Shown: positions 1-36,507 of the stretch, one piece after another
Numbering within the stretch: the stretch's first letter is position 1
Layout: the number at the start of each line of letters is the position of its first letter
IMG/VR virus record: IMGVR_UViG_3300029286_003398
Span: 1 to 36,507 of that record
DNA from: a virus
Direction: 5' to 3' (one strand)
DNA length: 36,507 bases
The notes under the pieces: model-generated
What the model saw: only the letters and a program-made list of their open reading frames with translations
The model's database searches: none
What the model was told of the DNA's origin: nothing
Translations under genes and position numbers: made by a program

Positions 1-1698
1 TCAAAACCTTTAGCGTGTTTTCTATAGCGCTGCGGGTCATGTCCTGGCAGTTCTTGGCCTGAATGCCTCCGTCTTGCAGCTGGCTGCTATTGCGACCCGT
101 AACGATAAAGTTGTGATTATCTTTGACCTCTATGTCGTAAACGGCTTCCTTGCGGCTTAGATCCTTGAAAGCCGATACCACGTTGTACGAATACGGCTTA
201 AACTGCGGATCCCACGAATATAGATCAGCTGTGTCGCATACGATGTCAGTCTTGTAGTGCAGATCTGAGTGCAGGTATGGTGCAACCTTATCAAGGAAAA
301 CATCCGACCCTTCCTTGTTTATCTTTATGACAAAATACTTGCCAGATACCATGGCTTTTTTGCACGCGACTCCCATGCTGATTAACTTCGCAACCAGCCT
401 ATCTACCGAATCTTCATCAAAAGAATTTGTGTGCAAGGTTATGTGGCGCTTGGTTTTGGCATTATTACTTCCGTCGTCCATGAACCATATGGCGACGCCT
501 CTCCAGTCTATCTTGTCGATAACCCACTGTGGACAGCTGTTTTTCTGATTCTTCGGGAAAGAACAGTTCGGAATTCCGAAACCCTTTGTCGCGAACCACC
601 ATCCCGGCTTCTTGTACTTGCCCTGTTCTGGAATAAATACACATTCTACCCCGAACATCTCCGCCTTCCACCTTGCATAGTTTTCCTGGCGAGCACCATG
701 CAGGACGCGAAGTCGATAGGAGTTGTTGGCGTATTCTTGAAGATTTCCATCTCCCAGGAACGAGCCTAGTACGATCTGGAGCTGGTCATCATTTATAGCC
801 CGAAGGTACTGTGATTTATTACCGGGATCTCCAATTACAAAATCTCCAACCTTGAGATTCTGGGCCTCTACCCACCCCTCTTCGGTCAAAAACTTGTGAT
901 CTTTGGTGCATTTCGCCCTGTACTTGCCGCACCTTAGTTCAAATACAGGCTTAGGTTCGCGCTTCCATGCGTGGACTACACTCTTATGCTCAAACTCCAT
1001 TGTTTGCTCATTTATCGTCTTGACGATAGGCAGCTCTTTTCCCGCCGCAAACATGTCGTATATTTTGCTTATCTTTATCTTGCCAGTTTCCGTCTTGATG
1101 AATGTGTTACCTACGAAACACTCGTCGTAAAGCAAAACATCCTGCGTACTACCGCGAATACGGTCGCCGGACTTGCCTATCGAGTCGACGCGAATCTTGC
1201 TCATTCCGATAAAGTTTTTCTGCGTCTGTGTGTCCTCTAGATCTACTGTCCTGGTAACCTTTAGAGCTCGCTTGCCAATATAGTTGTCCTTGGCACCGCT
1301 AATTAGATTAGCAAGAATGTCTTTTGCATAGACGCCGCAGCGCTTGAGGTCTGGGAAAACATGCATCACTCGAATAGGTGGTTTGCCTGACTCAGTACTA
1401 TACAGTCCAGAGCTGGCCATGTGCAGGCTCAGCACTCCGGCCATGATAGTGGCACCGACCTGACGGCCTTTTAGCAGAATGATGGGCTTTGCCTCTTTGT
1501 TCTCTACCTGCGCAGACACTGCCCGGTATATTTCTGCCATGTACTTCCATCCCGACCCCGATAGGTCGAATGGTTTTCCATCTATGGTCAGATTGTTTTC
1601 TGCAAAGCTAACAGGGTCAATGATCGAGATATCTCTCTTGATTTCATTGAAGATATCTTTTGACGTTAACGCCTTGACTTTCTTAGGGCTTACCATCT
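1..1698 (-). CDS. terL: Terminase large subunit (DNA packaging ATPase), partial, intein-interrupted
   Basis: This is the ATPase half of the motor that packages phage DNA into the prohead. The frame is open from about 1686 to the left edge, so the nuclease half lies outside the window. A Walker A-like stretch LLKGRQVGAT has its lysine at the front of the loop, as in lambda-type terminases. Walker B LLYDE is cut by an intein after the Glu; joining the flanks gives LLYDECQDM, the usual terminase DExQDM signature. The best start is ATG 1698, with GGAG seven bases upstream, but that frame stops after ten codons. The terminase frame lies -1 relative to it, across AAGAAAAAG near 1677-1685. One extra A would fuse them and give an N-terminus MVSPKKKVKALTSKD. 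Otherwise the first in-frame ATG is about 50 codons further in. The family call is secure; the start is not. Confidence 0.9.
50..1120 (-). mobile_element. Intein with LAGLIDADG homing endonuclease inside terL
   Basis: This is a 357-residue protein-splicing element in frame in terL. It begins with Cys1 (CFVGNT), directly after the Walker B Asp-Glu. A splicing block B is seen as CTKDHKF, with its His near residue 75. Two LAGLIDADG-type motifs, FLGDG near residue 121 and MDDG near residue 214, mark a homing endonuclease in the middle. Block F reads YDIEVKDNHNF. The element ends in AKN, followed by Cys as the +1 residue of the C-extein (CQDM). The penultimate residue is Lys, not the usual His. 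I saw no stop codon or frameshift, so both splicing and endonuclease parts look intact. The boundaries are inferred from the intein blocks and from the extein join restoring DECQDM. Confidence 0.9.
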
Positions 1699-1708
1699 GC
1701 TTTCTCCA

Positions 1709-1739
1709 TAAACACAAATCCGGCTATTGAAGCCGGACT
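1709..1739 (-). terminator. Intergenic hairpin, terminator-like
   Basis: TCCGGCT at 1721-1727 pairs with AGCCGGA at 1733-1739 around a five-base loop. Read on the minus strand it is followed by TTTGTGTTT. It lies between the 169-residue gene and terL, so it could end or attenuate transcription before terL. The T-tract is imperfect. Confidence 0.6.
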
Positions 1740-17307: not shown

Positions 17308-17340
17308 CAAAAGGCCCGCCGCGAAGCGGGCTTTTTGTTG
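17308..17340 (+). terminator. Terminator, first of two identical copies
   Basis: Stem GCCCGC (17314-17319) with GCGGGC (17326-17331), then TTTTTGTTG. The same 33 bases recur at 18034-18066. No plus-strand gene precedes this copy. The stretch 17169-17307 holds the fibre ribosome site, a TATAAT at 17242-17247, and otherwise nothing recognisable. Confidence 0.85.
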
Positions 17341-17378
17341 CATCTATGAATCTGTAAATAAGAAATATGAAAGTTTAA

Positions 17379-17462
17379 CCGGGCCCCATACCGGGCCCCA
17401 TACCGGGCCCCATACCGTGCCCCATACCGGGCCCCATACCGGGCCCCATACCGGGCCCCATA
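17379..17462 (+). repeat. Seven tandem 12-bp GC-rich repeats before a start codon
   Basis: Seven units of CCGGGCCCCATA; the fourth carries a G-to-T change (CCGTGCCCCATA). Each intact unit has the palindrome GGGCCC, so neighbouring units can pair into serial hairpins with a CATACC loop. The array ends 11 bases before ATG 17474, directly before its GAGAGGG ribosome site, and so lies in the likely mRNA leader. Confidence 0.97.
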
Positions 17463-17473
17463 GAGAGGGCTCC

Positions 17474-18031
17474 ATGTTTAAAAAGACTGCTGCTGCGTAT
17501 GACCTGGCGCAGAAATTCCTACAGAAGGGCGACGCTCGCAAGGCTCGCCTGGCCATGGATATCGGGGATCGGTTTCAGAAGATTGCCGAGGAATATGTGG
17601 AGCGCGCGGACCGCCTGCATCCCGCGATTGTCGAAGGCGACCTCGAAGCGACCAACAGAAATATAAATCTAATGAGCGACTACCTCCGAAAGGTGCAGGA
17701 GCGCGCATCAAGGATTGATCCAGCCGTCTTCTCCGATACCGGCACCACCGGCAGGCGTAACAAGGACGCCCTGCAGCATATTCAGGAGCTACAGGGCACT
17801 CTAGATGCCGTTAAAAGCCTCATGTCAACCAACAAGGGCCGTAAGTCGCTCTCGGCAAACATGGCGCTTGAGCACCTAAAAGAAATCGTAGATGAAGACA
17901 TCCGCAGCGGTCTGCTAGAGGGCGAAGGCGCGCAGACTATGAAAAACTATGTCATGCACCTGCAGCCAAAGTCAGGACTCGACAAGGATAAGCCATATTA
18001 CTTCAAAATGCCTCCAGGCGAGAAAATCTGA
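17474..18031 (+). CDS. Unknown helical protein, plus-strand cassette
   Basis: This 185-residue protein is not recognised. It is strongly helical and charged (FLQKGDARKARLAMDIGDRF, IQELQGTLDAVKSLM) and ends PYYFKMPPGEKI. ATG 17474 follows GAGAGGGCTCC, so I place the start after the 12-bp repeats. The frame continues upstream through the repeats as a TGPH array, but there is no ribosome site there. The N-terminus MFKKTAAAYD resembles the short Lys-Lys-x-Ala motifs of head-region proteins. Identical 33-bp terminators flank the gene, so it looks like an insulated cassette on the strand opposite the fibres. Role unknown. Confidence 0.78.
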   Translation: MFKKTAAAYDLAQKFLQKGDARKARLAMDIGDRFQKIAEEYVERADRLHPAIVEGDLEATNRNINLMSDYLRKVQERASRIDPAVFSDTGTTGRRNKDALQHIQELQGTLDAVKSLMSTNKGRKSLSANMALEHLKEIVDEDIRSGLLEGEGAQTMKNYVMHLQPKSGLDKDKPYYFKMPPGEKI

Positions 18032-18033
18032 AA

Positions 18034-18066
18034 CAAAAGGCCCGCCGCGAAGCGGGCTTTTTGTTG
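18034..18066 (+). terminator. Terminator, second identical copy
   Basis: The same 33 bases as 17308-17340: GCCCGC / GCGGGC stem and TTTTTGTTG. It starts three bases after the stop of the 185-residue gene and ends its transcript. Confidence 0.92.
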
Positions 18067-18103
18067 GTGTCTGCAGACAACCGTTCACCGGATCACGGGC
18101 TGT

Positions 18104-18136
18104 AAGAAAAACCGGGTTGCGCCAACGACCCGGTTT
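18104..18136 (-). terminator. Terminator of the HNH gene
   Basis: AAACCGGGT (18109-18117) pairs with ACCCGGTTT (18128-18136), nine pairs with a ten-base loop. On the minus strand it continues into TTCTTACAG after the stem's own T-run. It lies 24 bases beyond the stop of the minus-strand HNH gene. Confidence 0.8.
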
Positions 18137-18159
18137 CATTGCTTAAGTAAATAATCTGA

Positions 18160-19935
18160 TCAAACATCCCCTTCCGCCCGGAGTTCACGCTTCTGGCGGA
18201 AGGTTCCGTATTTGGTGAGGTAAGCTGAAAGCTGCTCTGGGGTATTGTTCTGATTGCCGTAGTCAGTATGAAACCCAATGTGACAGCCACGGCACATCGT
18301 AATGCCATTGTCAACATCGTAACGCAGCTCTTTGTATTTTGAAAAATCATACTTGTGGTGCGCATTCATGCCAGCTCCGCCAGTCGGCCCAACGTGACCG
18401 CAGCACTGACAGGTCATGCTATCGCGGGCGAATACTGCGCCTCTCCAGTCAATATACTCCTGGCTGCTGCGAGCTAGCCGTACCTCTTCGGTTGAGCCAT
18501 CGCGCCAATTCGGGTTATTCTCCCCGCTAAAATCTGCACGATAATCCGCAAGTGCGCAGCCACAGCTTGTCACCAGACCATTCTCTAGTTTGTACGGAGT
18601 AGCAGAGTGAGTCTTGCCGCAGTCGCATACTACTCGAGCAACAATCTCATTTTCGTACTTTTCACCCGGAGCCGCAACTCCAATGTCCGTGACAACCACT
18701 TTGCCAAAGCGCTTTCCAACAAGCTGGATCTTGCGTCGGGCAATTGCTGAGCAGCGGTCACTGCAAGCAGAAGCTTTATTCATCCGCAGCTTCGTAAGAG
18801 CCTCGACCCGAACATCCCCGCAAACACACCTGGCGTTTACCATTACGATCTTGTTTGCATCAGTAGCGTCTTTGTTTAGCGATTCGACCGTTAGTGAGCC
18901 GTATGTTTTGCCGATATCAACGCTTGCGGTTGAACGGTGGTAGCAGGACAGAGAACAGTAAACATTTCGACCTTTTTTCTCTGCCTCCTTTAGGTAGTTC
19001 ATGCGCTGCTGAGATTGCCCACCACAGCCAGGGCATTCGCAGTTCCACTCAGAATGTCCACTGTCCGTTCCGATAAAGCTAACCAGCTTCATGCCGGCAA
19101 CAGTTGTACCAACAAGGCCTGCAGTCTTGCCGACAAAAGCTCGCTTTTTTGCGCACGACGAGCAACCATTTGGAACAAGCGGATTCGTCTCTACTGCCTC
19201 GACATCATCACGCCTCAGACCCTCGACAACGGAATCGCAGTATCGGCAGCGACAATTCCACGCAGGCCGAGCACGACGAAAATGCTTTGTGCGCTCAATT
19301 ACCATGTATGCTGGGTATTCCCGGCCAGTCAGATCCTCGGCCTCGACAACAACTTTGGCAGATTTTATCTGCTTTGGGTGTGACGCAACGCGCTGATGGC
19401 GGCAGATGCCACAGCCATGGGTAGAGCCGTCAAGAACCTTGCGAGCCAGAGTAAGTGTCTTCCGACCGCAGTCACAGTCCGCCTGAAAGCACCACTGCCC
19501 CTCGTGATCACGGGCAACACCAGTAATGGTCAAAGAGGAATGTCTTGCGCCGATCTGATTTTTGTATTTTGTTTCTGCTGCACACTCAGACGTGCAGCTC
19601 TCCCAGTCGGCCTTCCTGGAAAAACGCCGCTTAGAGATCGCACCGCATGAACAGCGCAGTACTGCTAGCACACCCTGATTATCAGTGGAAGCCTCAGCTC
19701 CGATGACTGTCATATTTCCGTAAACATTTCCCATTTCACGGGCAAGGGTTTGTTGAACAGACTTGCATGTAGAGGAGCAGTACATATCTTCGCCGGCACG
19801 GGCCGATGCCAGCATCGCGCTTTGCTGAAGGCGGCGCTTAGCACCGCAGATGCACGTGCACTCCCAGTATACCTTGTAGTTTTCCCTTGGTAGTTCTGCC
19901 GTGACAGTTAAATGACCTATCTTCGTACCTATCAT
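18160..19935 (-). CDS. HNH endonuclease with seven zinc-knuckle-like modules
   Basis: This 591-residue protein is a probable free-standing homing-type endonuclease. The C-terminal domain (about 470-560) starts with SGENNPNWRDG, a motif common in HNH homing enzymes. It then shows TCQCCG (509-512), NAHHKYDF (His526/527) and MCRGCHIGFH (Cys548, Cys551, His556): a zinc-bound HNH nuclease. Residues 2-461 hold seven similar modules starting near 2, 68, 128, 201, 275, 340 and 406. Each has G-x-x-x-G-x-L-T-V or a variant, then C-x-C-(G) and a second cysteine pair, as in CICG with YCSSTC, CDCG with CGIC, CVCG with CSDRC, CDCG with SCGC. The array probably reads a long DNA target. ATG 19935 has a strong GAGG that can be masked by upstream RNA. 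A terminator follows. Confidence 0.88.
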   Translation of the reverse strand: MIGTKIGHLTVTAELPRENYKVYWECTCICGAKRRLQQSAMLASARAGEDMYCSSTCKSVQQTLAREMGNVYGNMTVIGAEASTDNQGVLAVLRCSCGAISKRRFSRKADWESCTSECAAETKYKNQIGARHSSLTITGVARDHEGQWCFQADCDCGRKTLTLARKVLDGSTHGCGICRHQRVASHPKQIKSAKVVVEAEDLTGREYPAYMVIERTKHFRRARPAWNCRCRYCDSVVEGLRRDDVEAVETNPLVPNGCSSCAKKRAFVGKTAGLVGTTVAGMKLVSFIGTDSGHSEWNCECPGCGGQSQQRMNYLKEAEKKGRNVYCSLSCYHRSTASVDIGKTYGSLTVESLNKDATDANKIVMVNARCVCGDVRVEALTKLRMNKASACSDRCSAIARRKIQLVGKRFGKVVVTDIGVAAPGEKYENEIVARVVCDCGKTHSATPYKLENGLVTSCGCALADYRADFSGENNPNWRDGSTEEVRLARSSQEYIDWRGAVFARDSMTCQCCGHVGPTGGAGMNAHHKYDFSKYKELRYDVDNGITMCRGCHIGFHTDYGNQNNTPEQLSAYLTKYGTFRQKRELRAEGDV

Positions 19936-19938
19936 AAA

Positions 19939-20046
19939 TCAACCTCTTCGCTCTGTGGACTGTAGCAGTTTTGCTCGAACAACTCGAGTTCTGCCAGCCT
20001 GTACATGTATATTTGATAGTCAAATATAACCAGACGAAGAGGTTGA
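19939..20046 (-). promoter_or_regulatory. Leader with inverted repeat masking the HNH ribosome site
   Basis: CGAAGAGGTTGA, which contains the HNH Shine-Dalgarno, lies at 19950-19939 on the minus strand. Its exact complement TCAACCTCTTCG lies upstream at 20046-20035. Pairing gives a 12-bp stem closing an 84-base loop and hides the ribosome site. Inside the loop is a second perfect palindrome, TATATTTGA / TCAAATATA, around 20008-20028. A transcript starting inside the loop would lack the masking arm. Confidence 0.65.
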
Positions 20047-20049
20047 AAG

Positions 20050-20484
20050 TCAGGTTTCGCTGAGAAGTCCCTTTATCTCCTCGAGACGAGCGAGGATTTG
20101 AGTGACATCCGGGTCGGTTTCGCAGATCTTCTTTATCTTCTTCAGTGCTCCGCCGTAACGTCTCCCTCCATTGGAATAGTCGATATTGCCAGAGATAATC
20201 TTATGTACAGTCGTCTGACATACCCCCAGCATATCAGCGACTTCCATTTGCGTTCTTTGCTCTAAAAAAGTACGTATCATCACCTCTCGCTGCCGCTCAG
20301 TCAGACACGTATCAATGACCTCTTTGATCTTGGCGATTAGGCGGTCCTGGAGCTCCTTCATCTCCTCCATCAACTCAACTTCGTTGATGTTATAGGTGGC
20401 GTTCCTGAGATAGACGGTAGACAGGATAACGGGATCAACGACAACTTCGCGATAAAGATACTGTGAATTGCTTGACTTAGAAAT
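20050..20484 (-). CDS. Sigma-70 region 4-like transcription regulator, possible ATT start
   Basis: This 144-residue protein has a helix-turn-helix of sigma region 4 type: LTERQREVMIRTFLEQ, then TQMEVADMLGVCQTTVHKII. It would bind promoter DNA or RNA polymerase and may direct a phage gene class, or be a simple HTH regulator. The frame is coding well upstream of the first ATG or TTG (QYLYREVVVDPVILSTVYL), back to a TGA at 20488-20490. The only well-placed start there is ATT at 20484, after GAGGTGATTT. The HNH gene next door has GAGGTTGATTT then ATG in the same layout, so ATT probably takes the place of ATG. A shorter 106-107-residue form from the TTG/ATG near 20373 is the alternative. Confidence 0.72.
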   Translation of the reverse strand: MSKSSNSQYLYREVVVDPVILSTVYLRNATYNINEVELMEEMKELQDRLIAKIKEVIDTCLTERQREVMIRTFLEQRTQMEVADMLGVCQTTVHKIISGNIDYSNGGRRYGGALKKIKKICETDPDVTQILARLEEIKGLLSET

Positions 20485-20625: not shown

Positions 20626-21042
20626 TTATTTTAGTACTCGCAGCAGGATTGGTACTAGAGGCTTCATCCCTGGGTGCAGTGGTTGAGGCAGATCGGTTGC
20701 ATCTACCCACCGGTGCTCGGCAGATTCTTCGCTGTTTACTGGTTCGAACTCTTCTGGGGTGCGCAGCAGATAACTGCGGTACTGTAGGTGTTTTTTATTA
20801 CTTGTGTACAGGTGCTGGGGTTTGCCTGTTAGTGCGGCCCCGGTCTCTTCTGTTATTTCGCGAAACAGTGCTTGCTCGGGTGATTCACCGGGCTCGACGC
20901 CCCCGCCTACAAGACTCCATGTACCACCGGCGCTTAGATGAGGTGCGCGCAGTTGGAGTAGAATTCTGCCGGTGCTGCTGGCTACTATCGCGGCTCCGGC
21001 AGCCAGTGCCGGGCTGGCGCGCTTAAAAAGCGAAAAAGTCAT
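20626..21042 (-). CDS. NUDIX hydrolase
   Basis: This 138-residue protein hydrolyses a nucleoside diphosphate linked to another group. The complete Nudix box (G-x5-E-x7-R-E-U-x-E-E-x-G-U) is present: GGGVEPGESPEQALFREI continuing TEETGA, about residues 46-69. The preceding TWSLVGG strand and following LQYRSYLL strand fit the fold. Substrate cannot be told; MutT-like cleaning of oxidised nucleotides or NAD/ADP-ribose processing are options. ATG 21042 follows CCGGGAGCGCG, so the 38 codons of open frame upstream are not used. The N-terminus MTFSLFKRAS nearly repeats that of the lysozyme-like protein at 10243 (MANFSLFKRAE), an unusual shared tag. It is divergent from the adhesin gene at 21191. Confidence 0.9.
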   Translation of the reverse strand: MTFSLFKRASPALAAGAAIVASSTGRILLQLRAPHLSAGGTWSLVGGGVEPGESPEQALFREITEETGAALTGKPQHLYTSNKKHLQYRSYLLRTPEEFEPVNSEESAEHRWVDATDLPQPLHPGMKPLVPILLRVLK

Positions 21043-21190
21043 CGCGCTCCCGGTTTTTGACATCATCTCTATGTGCCCATAATAATAGGTTTCGCAGTTG
21101 TGATACCCTGGTCCTGGCGGCCATGGTACTAAACATATTGTATTATGGCCAAGCAAAACCTGCGCAAGGCTAGCGATCTTCGGAGAATCT

Positions 21191-33653: not shown

Positions 33654-34226
33654 TCAGCCTTTAACGCCAGCATGCTCGGCTCGCATTTTGGCAATCTTCT
33701 GTTTTGCGAGTCGTACCGCCTCTGCATCGCGCAGGTCCTCACTAAGCGGCCCATCAAAAGTAACTAATTCGTCTTCTTCAACCTCTACGGTTTGCTCCTG
33801 CCGCTGCTGGAATTCTCGCAGCTTGGCTAGCTGGGCATGAGTAAGCTGCTCGCCTGGCAGCTCAAGAGTCGACTGCTCGGGGGCTACGCGAGCCTTGCGG
33901 ACTGGAAGTGGTGCAGGGCGGCGCATACCACCGGCCGGCTGCGAGGAGGAGCCCGCCGTGACGTAGACGATTTCCTTTGTTACCTGCCCATCGACCACAA
34001 CGCCTTTTGGGAAGATGTCGAACTTGCCGTGAAGCGCAGTTGCTAGCTTAATAGTGGTATCTTCGGCCATGTCGGTGACAGAAGAAGTGATTAGCGAAAC
34101 AACCGAGAATATCGCACCATGATCGGCATCTGATAGACAGGCCTTGCCGCAGGCAGGGCACTTGTTGTCTCGAATGGACGCTACAAAGCTTGGCGATATT
34201 TCTAGGTTACAGTTGATACAATTCAC
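33654..34226 (-). CDS. Zinc-ribbon protein downstream of polymerase, GTG start
   Basis: This 190-residue protein begins with a four-cysteine zinc ribbon (NCINCNLEIS and KCPACGKACL). A beta-like region follows (KFDIFPKGVVVDGQVTKEIV), then a Pro/Arg linker and a charged helical C-terminus (HAQLAKLREFQQRQEQTVEV). The start is GTG 34226, overlapping the polymerase stop as GTGA; longer frames upstream run through the polymerase gene and are not used. Such small zinc-ribbon proteins occur as transcription or replication accessories in phages. Its tight coupling to the polymerase suggests it works with it, but no family match is claimed. Confidence 0.72.
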   Translation of the reverse strand: MNCINCNLEISPSFVASIRDNKCPACGKACLSDADHGAIFSVVSLITSSVTDMAEDTTIKLATALHGKFDIFPKGVVVDGQVTKEIVYVTAGSSSQPAGGMRRPAPLPVRKARVAPEQSTLELPGEQLTHAQLAKLREFQQRQEQTVEVEEDELVTFDGPLSEDLRDAEAVRLAKQKIAKMRAEHAGVKG

Positions 34227-36507
34227 TTGGGCTCCTTCCAAATTGAAACTACGTCCTCTAGGCTGAGAGATTTTGCCTCGTTCCACTCTTTTACAGTGCA
34301 GCGTAGGATCACCGGAGACCCCACTTCCAGACGGGGCTTTGTGCTCTCCCAGTCGTCCGGCCAAACCGACACTTCAAAATCCTCTTTCTTCAGCGACTCG
34401 ATTTTAACCTTGCCCTGCATTCTGCCTGCGTTCTTGCCAGTCCGAACCGGAATCTGGTCTATTCCAAGTATAACGCCTTCCAGCATGACCTTGTGATAAT
34501 TAGGCAGGGCCTGCAGCTGAGCACGTGTAAGCGGGTTATTGATGTTCTTGAAGAAGCCACCAAACACCTCTTCGGCAGAGCCGGAGATAAACTCTCCGAG
34601 AGCCTCTTTCTCGGCAAGAAGGATCTCTTTCCGGCCCCACTCCCGGGTCATTTCCTCTTTTGTAGAGAGGTAGTCAAAGCTGCTCCAGTCGATATCCTTG
34701 GCTTCTGCGGCGCCATCCTGAATGGCCGCATCACCGAGGCTGTTGATCTTCATGCGCAGGCGCTTAGCGGCTTTCTCTTCAGAGAAGGTGTCGCAAATCC
34801 ACTTGCGTGAAATACCGAAGCCGTCAAATGCACCAGCTTTGGCCAGCGAGATAATAGTCTTGCGGTTGACAGAAGAGGGGCTGCGATAAACAAAGTCGGC
34901 AAATGCTGTATATGGCTGACCCGCAAAAATATGCGAGATTGCTACGTCACCAACTCCGTTGACAGCGTTCAGGCCCGTAACAATAGTCTTGCGATCAATC
35001 GCCCGATACCTGTCGCCGCTCAGGTTGATGTCGCAGGCACGGATTGCAATCTTGGAAGAGAGGATTTCTTTCTTGACCTGTTCGATGTACGCAGCAGTGT
35101 CCGGCGTCTTCTTTGCGATCTCCTGGTTCAAGTAAGAGCACAGAAAGGCTGCTCGGGCGTGATACTTATAGTATGCCGTCGCATAACCCATTCTGGCGTA
35201 GGCAACGCTGTGGGCTTTGCAGTTGTGAGCAACGAAGCCACCTGGAAGGATGAAATTGGGGTCGACGGGCATCTCCATGTCGTAGACCTCTATTTCTCCC
35301 ATGTCTAGTACTTCTGTCACGGGGTCTGTGATCCATGTACCAAAACCATTGGCACGACTCGCTGCGCCGGCAGCGATGACCTGCTTAAACTGCACCCAGC
35401 CTCCGACCCGGTGGTCGTAAAAACGGTGGTCCTCTGTGGCAGAGACCGTATGACCGCTTTCAAAGGTTACCTTGAAAGCCTGCTTATTGCCAGTCGACCA
35501 GACTTTGCTTGCGGGCGCATACTTGAAGCCGCCCGTATGAAGATCGATAAATTTAACAAGCGTGCCACTGCCGATGGAGGAGATTGGGCGCGGGCCGTCG
35601 ATTGTCTCAACAAGCTGATCACCTGCTATGCAAAATCCGTATTTTGCATAATCGGCAATAACATTGTCCCAGATGTATTGCGCATCCTTGCGCGCCACGC
35701 GACCGAGCTTCTCAGCGTCGTCAACGAACTTCTTCTCTAGCTTGGCCGCTAGATCTGCGCCCTTTTCCTTCAGCTTTGTTAGCTTGCGCAGACCATCGGC
35801 CTCGGAAAGGCTCCATCCGGCAATATGGCTGGCGATCTTCAGCAGATCTTCGTCGTAAACAGAGATACCAAGAGTTGACTTCGAGATGTGCTCGAGCTCG
35901 GGGTGAGCGTAATCTACCTTTTGCCGTCCGAAGCGACGGTCGATAAACTGCTTGCGCTTTGCCTTGTCAACGCCAGGGCGACCAAGAGCGTTGATGAGAG
36001 AAATGTCTTCAATGTTTTTGGGCTGCATTGGCTTGCACAGCTGTGCAAGAGTGCCGCCCTCTAGCTGGAAAAGGCCAAGCACATCGCCGGCGGAGATCAT
36101 CTTATAGACCTGCTGGTCGTCCTCTGGAACTTCCCATGGCTTAGGCAGATCAATGCCCATCTTGCGAGCAGTCAGGTAGGCCTCCCGCAGCACATCGAGC
36201 GTATCCAGACCAAGCATGTCGATCTTGATGAGACCCACTTCTTCTGACACGTACTTGTCGTAGTGAACGCTTACGGTGCCATCAGAGTCCCGCCGCAGCG
36301 GGAAGTTGTCGGGCAGCGACACATCGCTGACAATAACGCCACCGGCATGCATACCCCAGCTACGGGGCAGGCCTACGACCTTTTCCGCATGGGCTTCGAC
36401 TTCTGGGTATTGCCTAAAGAAATCAACAAGAGTGGGGCTGTATTCCTTCGCAAGAGCAACGGTATTAATCTCGATAATCTTGCCATCTGGCTTCGTAACC
36501 TTGAGGG
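34223..36507 (-). CDS. dnaE: DNA polymerase III alpha-type polymerase (DnaE family), partial, intein-interrupted
   Basis: This is the replicative polymerase; its N-terminal part lies beyond the right edge, and the frame is open to 36507. Visible DnaE landmarks in order: LPRSWGMHAGGVIVSD (the palm-region histidine loop), GLIKIDMLGLDTLDVL, which carries the third catalytic Asp, NALGRPGVDKAKR, STLGISVYDEDLL, and, after intein removal, YAKYGFCKAHSVAYA, equivalent to the FNKSHS helix. The C-terminal part has a helix-hairpin-like region (NAVNGVGDVAISHIF) and an OB fold (RMQGKVKIESLKKEDFEVSV). There is no tau-binding tail as in E. coli. The stop overlaps the zinc-ribbon gene as GTGA. A phage coding its own alpha subunit would replicate with limited dependence on host enzyme. 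Confidence 0.93.
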   Translation of the reverse strand, partial: LKVTKPDGKIIEINTVALAKEYSPTLVDFFRQYPEVEAHAEKVVGLPRSWGMHAGGVIVSDVSLPDNFPLRRDSDGTVSVHYDKYVSEEVGLIKIDMLGLDTLDVLREAYLTARKMGIDLPKPWEVPEDDQQVYKMISAGDVLGLFQLEGGTLAQLCKPMQPKNIEDISLINALGRPGVDKAKRKQFIDRRFGRQKVDYAHPELEHISKSTLGISVYDEDLLKIASHIAGWSLSEADGLRKLTKLKEKGADLAAKLEKKFVDDAEKLGRVARKDAQYIWDNVIADYAKYGFCIAGDQLVETIDGPRPISSIGSGTLVKFIDLHTGGFKYAPASKVWSTGNKQAFKVTFESGHTVSATEDHRFYDHRVGGWVQFKQVIAAGAASRANGFGTWITDPVTEVLDMGEIEVYDMEMPVDPNFILPGGFVAHNCKAHSVAYARMGYATAYYKYHARAAFLCSYLNQEIAKKTPDTAAYIEQVKKEILSSKIAIRACDINLSGDRYRAIDRKTIVTGLNAVNGVGDVAISHIFAGQPYTAFADFVYRSPSSVNRKTIISLAKAGAFDGFGISRKWICDTFSEEKAAKRLRMKINSLGDAAIQDGAAEAKDIDWSSFDYLSTKEEMTREWGRKEILLAEKEALGEFISGSAEEVFGGFFKNINNPLTRAQLQALPNYHKVMLEGVILGIDQIPVRTGKNAGRMQGKVKIESLKKEDFEVSVWPDDWESTKPRLEVGSPVILRCTVKEWNEAKSLSLEDVVSIWKEPK
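35222..35632 (-). other. Mini-intein in the DnaE polymerase
   Basis: This is a 137-residue protein-splicing element without an endonuclease. It begins CIAGDQLVETIDG, has block B as SATEDHRF, block F as EVYDMEMP with NFILPGG, and ends in the canonical FVAHN followed by Cys as +1 residue. Removal joins YAKYGF to CKAHSVAYA, restoring a conserved DnaE segment. It sits two residues downstream of the site used by the cyanobacterial split DnaE intein (Y / CFNKSHS). The ends are inferred from the motifs and agree with a reading frame divisible by three. Confidence 0.93.

Follow-up and report, generated by a model that had tools for sequence, protein, structure and literature searches.

A phage HNH protein with seven diverged zinc modules, probably a free-standing homing endonuclease, at a locus where the module number varies

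Introduction

The DNA-binding parts of phage homing endonucleases are arranged as beads on a string (PMC2988022, PMC3943268). Among the T5orf172 homing endonucleases, these beads include tandem zinc modules (up to six), whose number changes by recombination, examples being the six modules of Vibrio phage Helene and the gp174 deletion allele, and the authors of that work put forward the idea that specificity arises from the beads jointly (PMC10448857). The question raised by such enzymes is why they have multiple zinc modules and whether the module count governs target length, specificity or cutting distance.

The gene described here lies in a virus genome (IMG/VR record IMGVR_UViG_3300029286_003398, positions 1 to 36,507); the window is this whole stretch of 36,507 nucleotides. 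The gene encodes a seven-module array followed by an HNH domain, and its value lies in the series of zero, three, five and seven modules found at one locus, more than in the array as such.

The gene, its modules and its HNH domain

The gene is an open reading frame (ORF) of 591 residues with an ATG start (Table 1). A hidden Markov model (HMM) seeded with the seven candidate modules of the protein placed them at residues 2-63, 69-125, 128-185, 203-268, 275-338, 342-402 and 406-467, with an irregular spacing of 59-75 residues, which bears out the seven diverged modules proposed in the initial annotation. Their likeness is not a matter of chance, because the summed pairwise BLOSUM62 score of the seven was 769, against 488 ± 21 for shuffled sequences (maximum 538; n=300), more than 13 standard deviations away, and with the cysteines masked it was 517 against 429 ± 17 (maximum 491), about 5 standard deviations. 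Each module contains a C-x-C (or C-x-C-x-x-C) knuckle and then a second C-x(1-3)-C pair, and both pairs, as had been claimed, are found in seven of seven modules of this protein and of its two orthologues; from these cysteines we infer that the modules bind zinc. The G-x-x-x-G-x-L-T-V strand that had been attributed to every module fared less well, since the strict string occurs in only two of them, at residues 3 and 342, and is degenerate in the other five (for example, GREYPAYMV and GTTVAGMKL), so that it represents a consensus and not a constant feature. The net charge of modules 1 to 7 is mostly positive (+3, +2, +3, +6, +2, +5 and 0).

The array precedes one HNH domain, in agreement with the initial annotation: PF01844 matched residues 509-553 below the Pfam cut-off, and the best match to the PHROG HNH families reached 1e-14. 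The HNH residues and the zinc pairs are conserved in all orthologues, the catalytic motif thus being intact.

Table 1. Features of the endonuclease gene and of its locus. Positions are those of the window unless another contig is named.
Feature	Position	Strand	Basis or remark
591-aa HNH endonuclease with seven zinc modules	18160..19935	-	ORF list; whole architecture kept in orthologues L002 (96%) and L003 (73%)
Module 1, residues 1-67	19735..19935	-	HMM and alignment
Module 2, residues 68-126	19558..19734	-	HMM and alignment
Module 3 with long linker, residues 127-201	19333..19557	-	HMM and alignment; linker residues 180-191 pLDDT <50
Module 4, residues 202-273; counterpart L222 module A	19117..19332	-	HMM, alignment and module-by-module comparison
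Module 5, residues 274-339; counterparts L222 C, L220 A	18919..19116	-	HMM, alignment and module-by-module comparison
Module 6, residues 340-404; counterparts L222 D, L220 B	18724..18918	-	HMM and alignment; AlphaFold2 pair model pLDDT 87
Module 7, residues 405-469; counterparts L222 E, L220 C	18529..18723	-	HMM and alignment; AlphaFold2 pair model pLDDT 87
SGENNPNWRDG linker motif between array and HNH, residues 470-480	18496..18528	-	conserved in HNH relatives retrieved with the motif
HNH catalytic domain, residues 505-556 (CxxC, AHH, N, CxxCH..H)	18268..18423	-	Pfam PF01844 and PHROG HNH families; residues invariant in orthologues
Ribosome-binding-like GAAGAGG upstream of the ATG	19943..19949	-	sequence read directly
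Hairpin and T run directly past the stop	18105..18135	-	sequence read; in L003, not in empty allele L218
Sigma-70 region 4-like HTH gene, locus anchor	20050..20373	-	PF04545 E 1.4e-8; relatives L217-L222
Cassette absent from L218/L219 (approximate)	18100..19950	-	blastn and junction alignment against L218; left edge between about 19951 and 19997
Scar of the 3' end of a window-type gene	6653-6736 of L220		behind a different endonuclease gene; 86% identical; tblastn E 5e-6
Five-module array gene	5405-6820 of L222		two modules and, past an in-frame TGA, three more with HNH

Orthologues and selection

Two orthologues of the protein were found in IMG/VR, L002 (96% identical) and L003 (73%), in each of which the seven modules are all retained, their order unchanged. 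Between the window and L002, dN is 0.019 and dS 0.231 (dN/dS about 0.08), with a low dN in every module (0 to 0.025); between the window and L003, the synonymous sites are near saturation. Judging from these substitution rates, the seven-module array is maintained under purifying selection.

The strong conservation between the window and L002 would also be compatible with a gene domesticated for a phage function. The protein would then be a nuclease aimed at rival phages or at satellites, with Odn of ICP1 as the precedent for such marker exclusion, and not a selfish element, a reading for which the strong purifying selection, the position shared by three phages and the known co-option of homing-derived nucleases (PMC10448857) can be adduced. 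However, relatives lack the gene, have another in its place or carry an interrupted version, the protein has no PADLOC match, and domestication appears to us rather unlikely. Elsewhere in the window, a minus-strand Nudix hydrolase (20626-21156) gives a match of 1.6e-14 to PDC-S07, a candidate defence model in PADLOC.

A widespread module family

The module is widespread, and sequence searches revealed neither a model for it in Pfam or NCBIfam nor a sequence match in the PDB, from which a solved structure is likewise missing. It does occur in other phage proteins, as had been surmised: the window protein matched phrog_374, a family named HNH endonuclease, at 2.7e-26 over four stretches, and in a profile search 63 of 65 sampled module pairs matched the same family. 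Scans of viral and bacterial genomes yielded at least about 190 ORFs with the module. Among the matches listed, with duplicates removed, 72 ORFs had one module, 67 two, 42 three, 6 four, 1 five and 3 seven, these counts coming from a sample biased by the search patterns and from an HMM that undercounts diverged modules. The family is, then, common to many phage and bacterial proteins, with 1-7 copies per protein; its four cysteines (CxC ... C-x(1-3)-C) are near-invariant, being present in 352-360 of 360 aligned modules at each column, and its modules are mostly basic, with a mean net charge of +4.8. Seven modules are also found in a bacterial protein from a rumen Clostridia MAG (L151), so the seven-fold array is rare without being unique; a search for long arrays in 291 genomes of the same class returned no further seven-module protein. 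Given that the module is that of PHROG 374, that arrays of 2-7 occur elsewhere and that phage homing endonucleases with zinc modules in tandem have been published (PMC10448857), the suggestion that the array constitutes a new system is not supported.

The C-termini of the module proteins include HNH, AP2-like and Y/F-DF...E-x-Q-G-x-Q-H nuclease types, the PHROG relatives of the last being named homing endonuclease; the module is a candidate DNA-binding part common to HNH, AP2-like and EDxHD/PD-(D/E)xK-like nucleases. Conversely, relatives of the window's HNH domain bear arrays of other mini-modules (NUMOD3, DUF4379 treble-clef repeats, CxxC repeats). Relatives adjoin terminase, helicase, capsid and tape-measure genes, where homing genes typically lie, and the annotation of several reads HNH (homing) endonuclease. 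Three further records are worth mentioning. An Azonexus plasmid (L014, 2650-3573) encodes an unannotated protein that carries three modules but lacks a nuclease domain; a cysteine-rich HNH protein of Vibrio phage 1.245.O (L005, 2243-2932) is annotated as a 'multiheme cytochrome', a label that its CxxC pairs probably prompted; and the record of Vibrio phage F102 (L048) contains about 19 CapR-domain matches, several in a row in some proteins.

A relationship between the module and the zinc domain of CapR is plausible. The CapR homology domain (PF21817) was not matched in the window protein in the Pfam search, the CapR Pfam model matched 3 of 65 family module pairs (best 1.4e-5), and a profile-profile comparison (hhalign) gave a probability of only 40% over 30 columns. 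CapR is a repressor built from a homing-endonuclease zinc domain (PMC10448857), and this precedent, together with those few matches, could suggest that the window protein acts as a regulator of transcription or at the RNA level, with its HNH domain in a subordinate role. With the HNH residues intact and conserved and the relatives being nucleases, such a role is very improbable.

Predicted structure of the array

For modules 6-7, AlphaFold2 supplied with 65 module pairs gave a model with pLDDT 87, in which each module begins with a pair of strands, followed by the zinc knuckle, another strand, a short helix and, at the second cysteine pair, a longer one. The full-length model (pLDDT 77, pTM 0.28) contains a similar unit seven times, and the arrangement from bead to bead is not fixed in it; the seven modules are predicted to be beads on a string. 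A Foldseek search of the PDB detected no relative (best E 0.19), and VIA-align gave, for the first ~48 residues, only resemblances to small SH3/Tudor/KOW-like barrels with a best Z of 5.7 (all under Z 6). The structure matches in BFVD were phage proteins annotated AP2, HNH or 'restriction enzyme', that is, members of the same family. The likeliest role of the seven modules is that of a modular DNA-binding array.

The array could act mainly as a ruler, tether or fidelity switch, with only one or two modules contacting bases and the others setting the distance between binding and cutting, in the manner of the I-TevI zinc finger and linker, which determine the distance and also act as a switch sensitive to redox state (PMC2988022). 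The zero net charge of module 7, the irregular spacing of the modules and the loose bead arrangement of the full-length model are in keeping with this possibility; the mostly basic character of the family modules and the existence of arrays without HNH or with AP2-like domains speak against it, and we regard it as possible, if unlikely.

A locus with zero, three, five or seven modules

The equivalent place in related phages was located via the sigma-like HTH gene. In L218 and L219, similarity to the window extends up to position 20009 and restarts at position 18101, about ten bases on in those contigs, which contain no relative of the window protein anywhere. An empty allele, in which the flanks are joined without the cassette, therefore exists at the same locus. 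The empty allele of L219 lies on a contig of 371,675 bases, so this phage group may have very large genomes, or the contig may not represent a single phage.

L220 carries, in the same place, a protein of 349 residues with three modules and an HNH domain. Its scar still encodes ITKYGTFRQKRELRAEGGV followed by a stop, corresponding to the C-terminus of the window protein, and this indicates that L220 once held a gene with a window-type 3' end, since replaced; of the alleles compared, it is the only one for which the polarity of gain and loss is clear. In L222, the five-module gene is interrupted by a single TGA, after which a GTG could serve as a start, and it may be a split gene or a broken one. 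When the modules were compared one by one, the best matches of L222 A, C, D and E were window modules 4, 5, 6 and 7 (L222 B being ambiguous), and those of L220 A, B and C were modules 5, 6 and 7. The modules close to the HNH domain are hence conserved and colinear, while the number of N-terminal ones varies; with seven modules in L002, L003 and the window, a 0/3/5/7 series is observed at one locus.

What these observations show is a self-contained cassette (start region, ORF and hairpin) at a fixed locus, present in some of the related phages, missing from others and variable in module number. We consider it probable that the window gene encodes an HNH homing endonuclease of the free-standing (intergenic) kind in a tailed phage, whose array would bind a long site beside the sigma-like gene; it is assigned to the free-standing type only, because the window has no intron and no Rfam match. 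The seven beads would line the DNA and jointly occupy a long site lying at, or close to, the junction downstream of the sigma-like gene; alleles lacking the cassette would be nicked or cut by the HNH domain, and repair from the carrier would copy the cassette, as for the T4 Mob and Seg enzymes. Over time, N-terminal modules would have been gained or lost while modules 5-7 and the HNH domain remained colinear. Against homing it can be said that the presence or absence of the gene at the locus could also stem from loss.

A stronger form of DNA recognition was also weighed, in which each module reads a defined short DNA element, the module number sets the target length and N-terminal additions lengthen recognition, as the 3/5/7 series would show. 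This is decidedly unlikely. The one-module-one-element code raised as a possibility in the initial annotation is unsupported, because the mean identity among the seven modules is 19% (3-34%) and no constant frame with a few hypervariable positions, as in TALEs, was found among them. Columns conserved among orthologues and variable among modules, read by eye, form no evident cluster and thus offer no candidate positions for a code. With these identity values, the modules do not follow the pattern of a TALE-like programmable array, which would consist of near-identical repeats differing at a few specificity positions. Since a single locus offers an empty site and three, five and seven colinear modules, the relation between bead number and target length is directly testable.

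Other elements in the window

Several selfish elements appear to reside in this phage. The terminase large subunit ORF (5-1717, minus strand) has an internal match to a LAGLIDADG homing endonuclease (residues 309-484), probably an intein, and a DNA polymerase III alpha-like protein (34226-36352, minus strand) has a sub-threshold intein-splicing match. Two identical terminator-like hairpins of 33 nt (17308-17340 and 18034-18066) flank a plus-strand gene ending at 18031, and the second adjoins the endonuclease cassette. A 12-nt tandem repeat, (ACCGGGCCCCAT)n, which reads as PHTG repeats on the plus strand, occupies 17378-17474; a related repeat in L003 differs from it in unit or in copy number.

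Comparison with known systems

Several described systems share part of this architecture. The T4 Mob, Seg and I-TevI enzymes (PMC2988022) are also phage homing nucleases with DNA-binding parts strung as beads, in I-TevI with a zinc finger, but they have no single module repeated at length in tandem. In HNH enzymes that carry NUMOD3 (for example L038, PF07460 E 5.8e-35, four stretches), the HNH domain likewise follows a tandem array of small DNA-binding motifs, made, however, of NUMOD3 helices without zinc. The PHROG 374 'HNH endonuclease' proteins, among them those of Pseudomonas phages KIL1 and 201phi2-1 and of Variovorax phage VPv62, have 1-5 GxxFGxLTV zinc modules of the window protein's family, often with an HNH or AP2-like C-terminus; their modules are fewer and less diverged. 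The L151 protein equals the window protein in having seven tandem modules of this family, but its modules are 41% identical to one another, against 19% in the window, and its C-terminus is homing-endonuclease-like (phrog_9084), an EDxHD/PD-(D/E)xK-like nuclease by motif and PHROG match.

The T5orf172 (GIY-YIG) enzymes, with their tandem CapR/DUF723/DUF4379-type zinc modules (PMC10448857), resemble the window protein, read as a free-standing phage homing endonuclease, in having repeated zinc modules at one end and the nuclease at the other, with a repeat number that shifts by recombination. The window protein differs from them in its HNH nuclease, in a distinct module profile (the link to CapR having the 40% probability given above), in its seven modules and in the natural 0/3/5/7 series at one locus.
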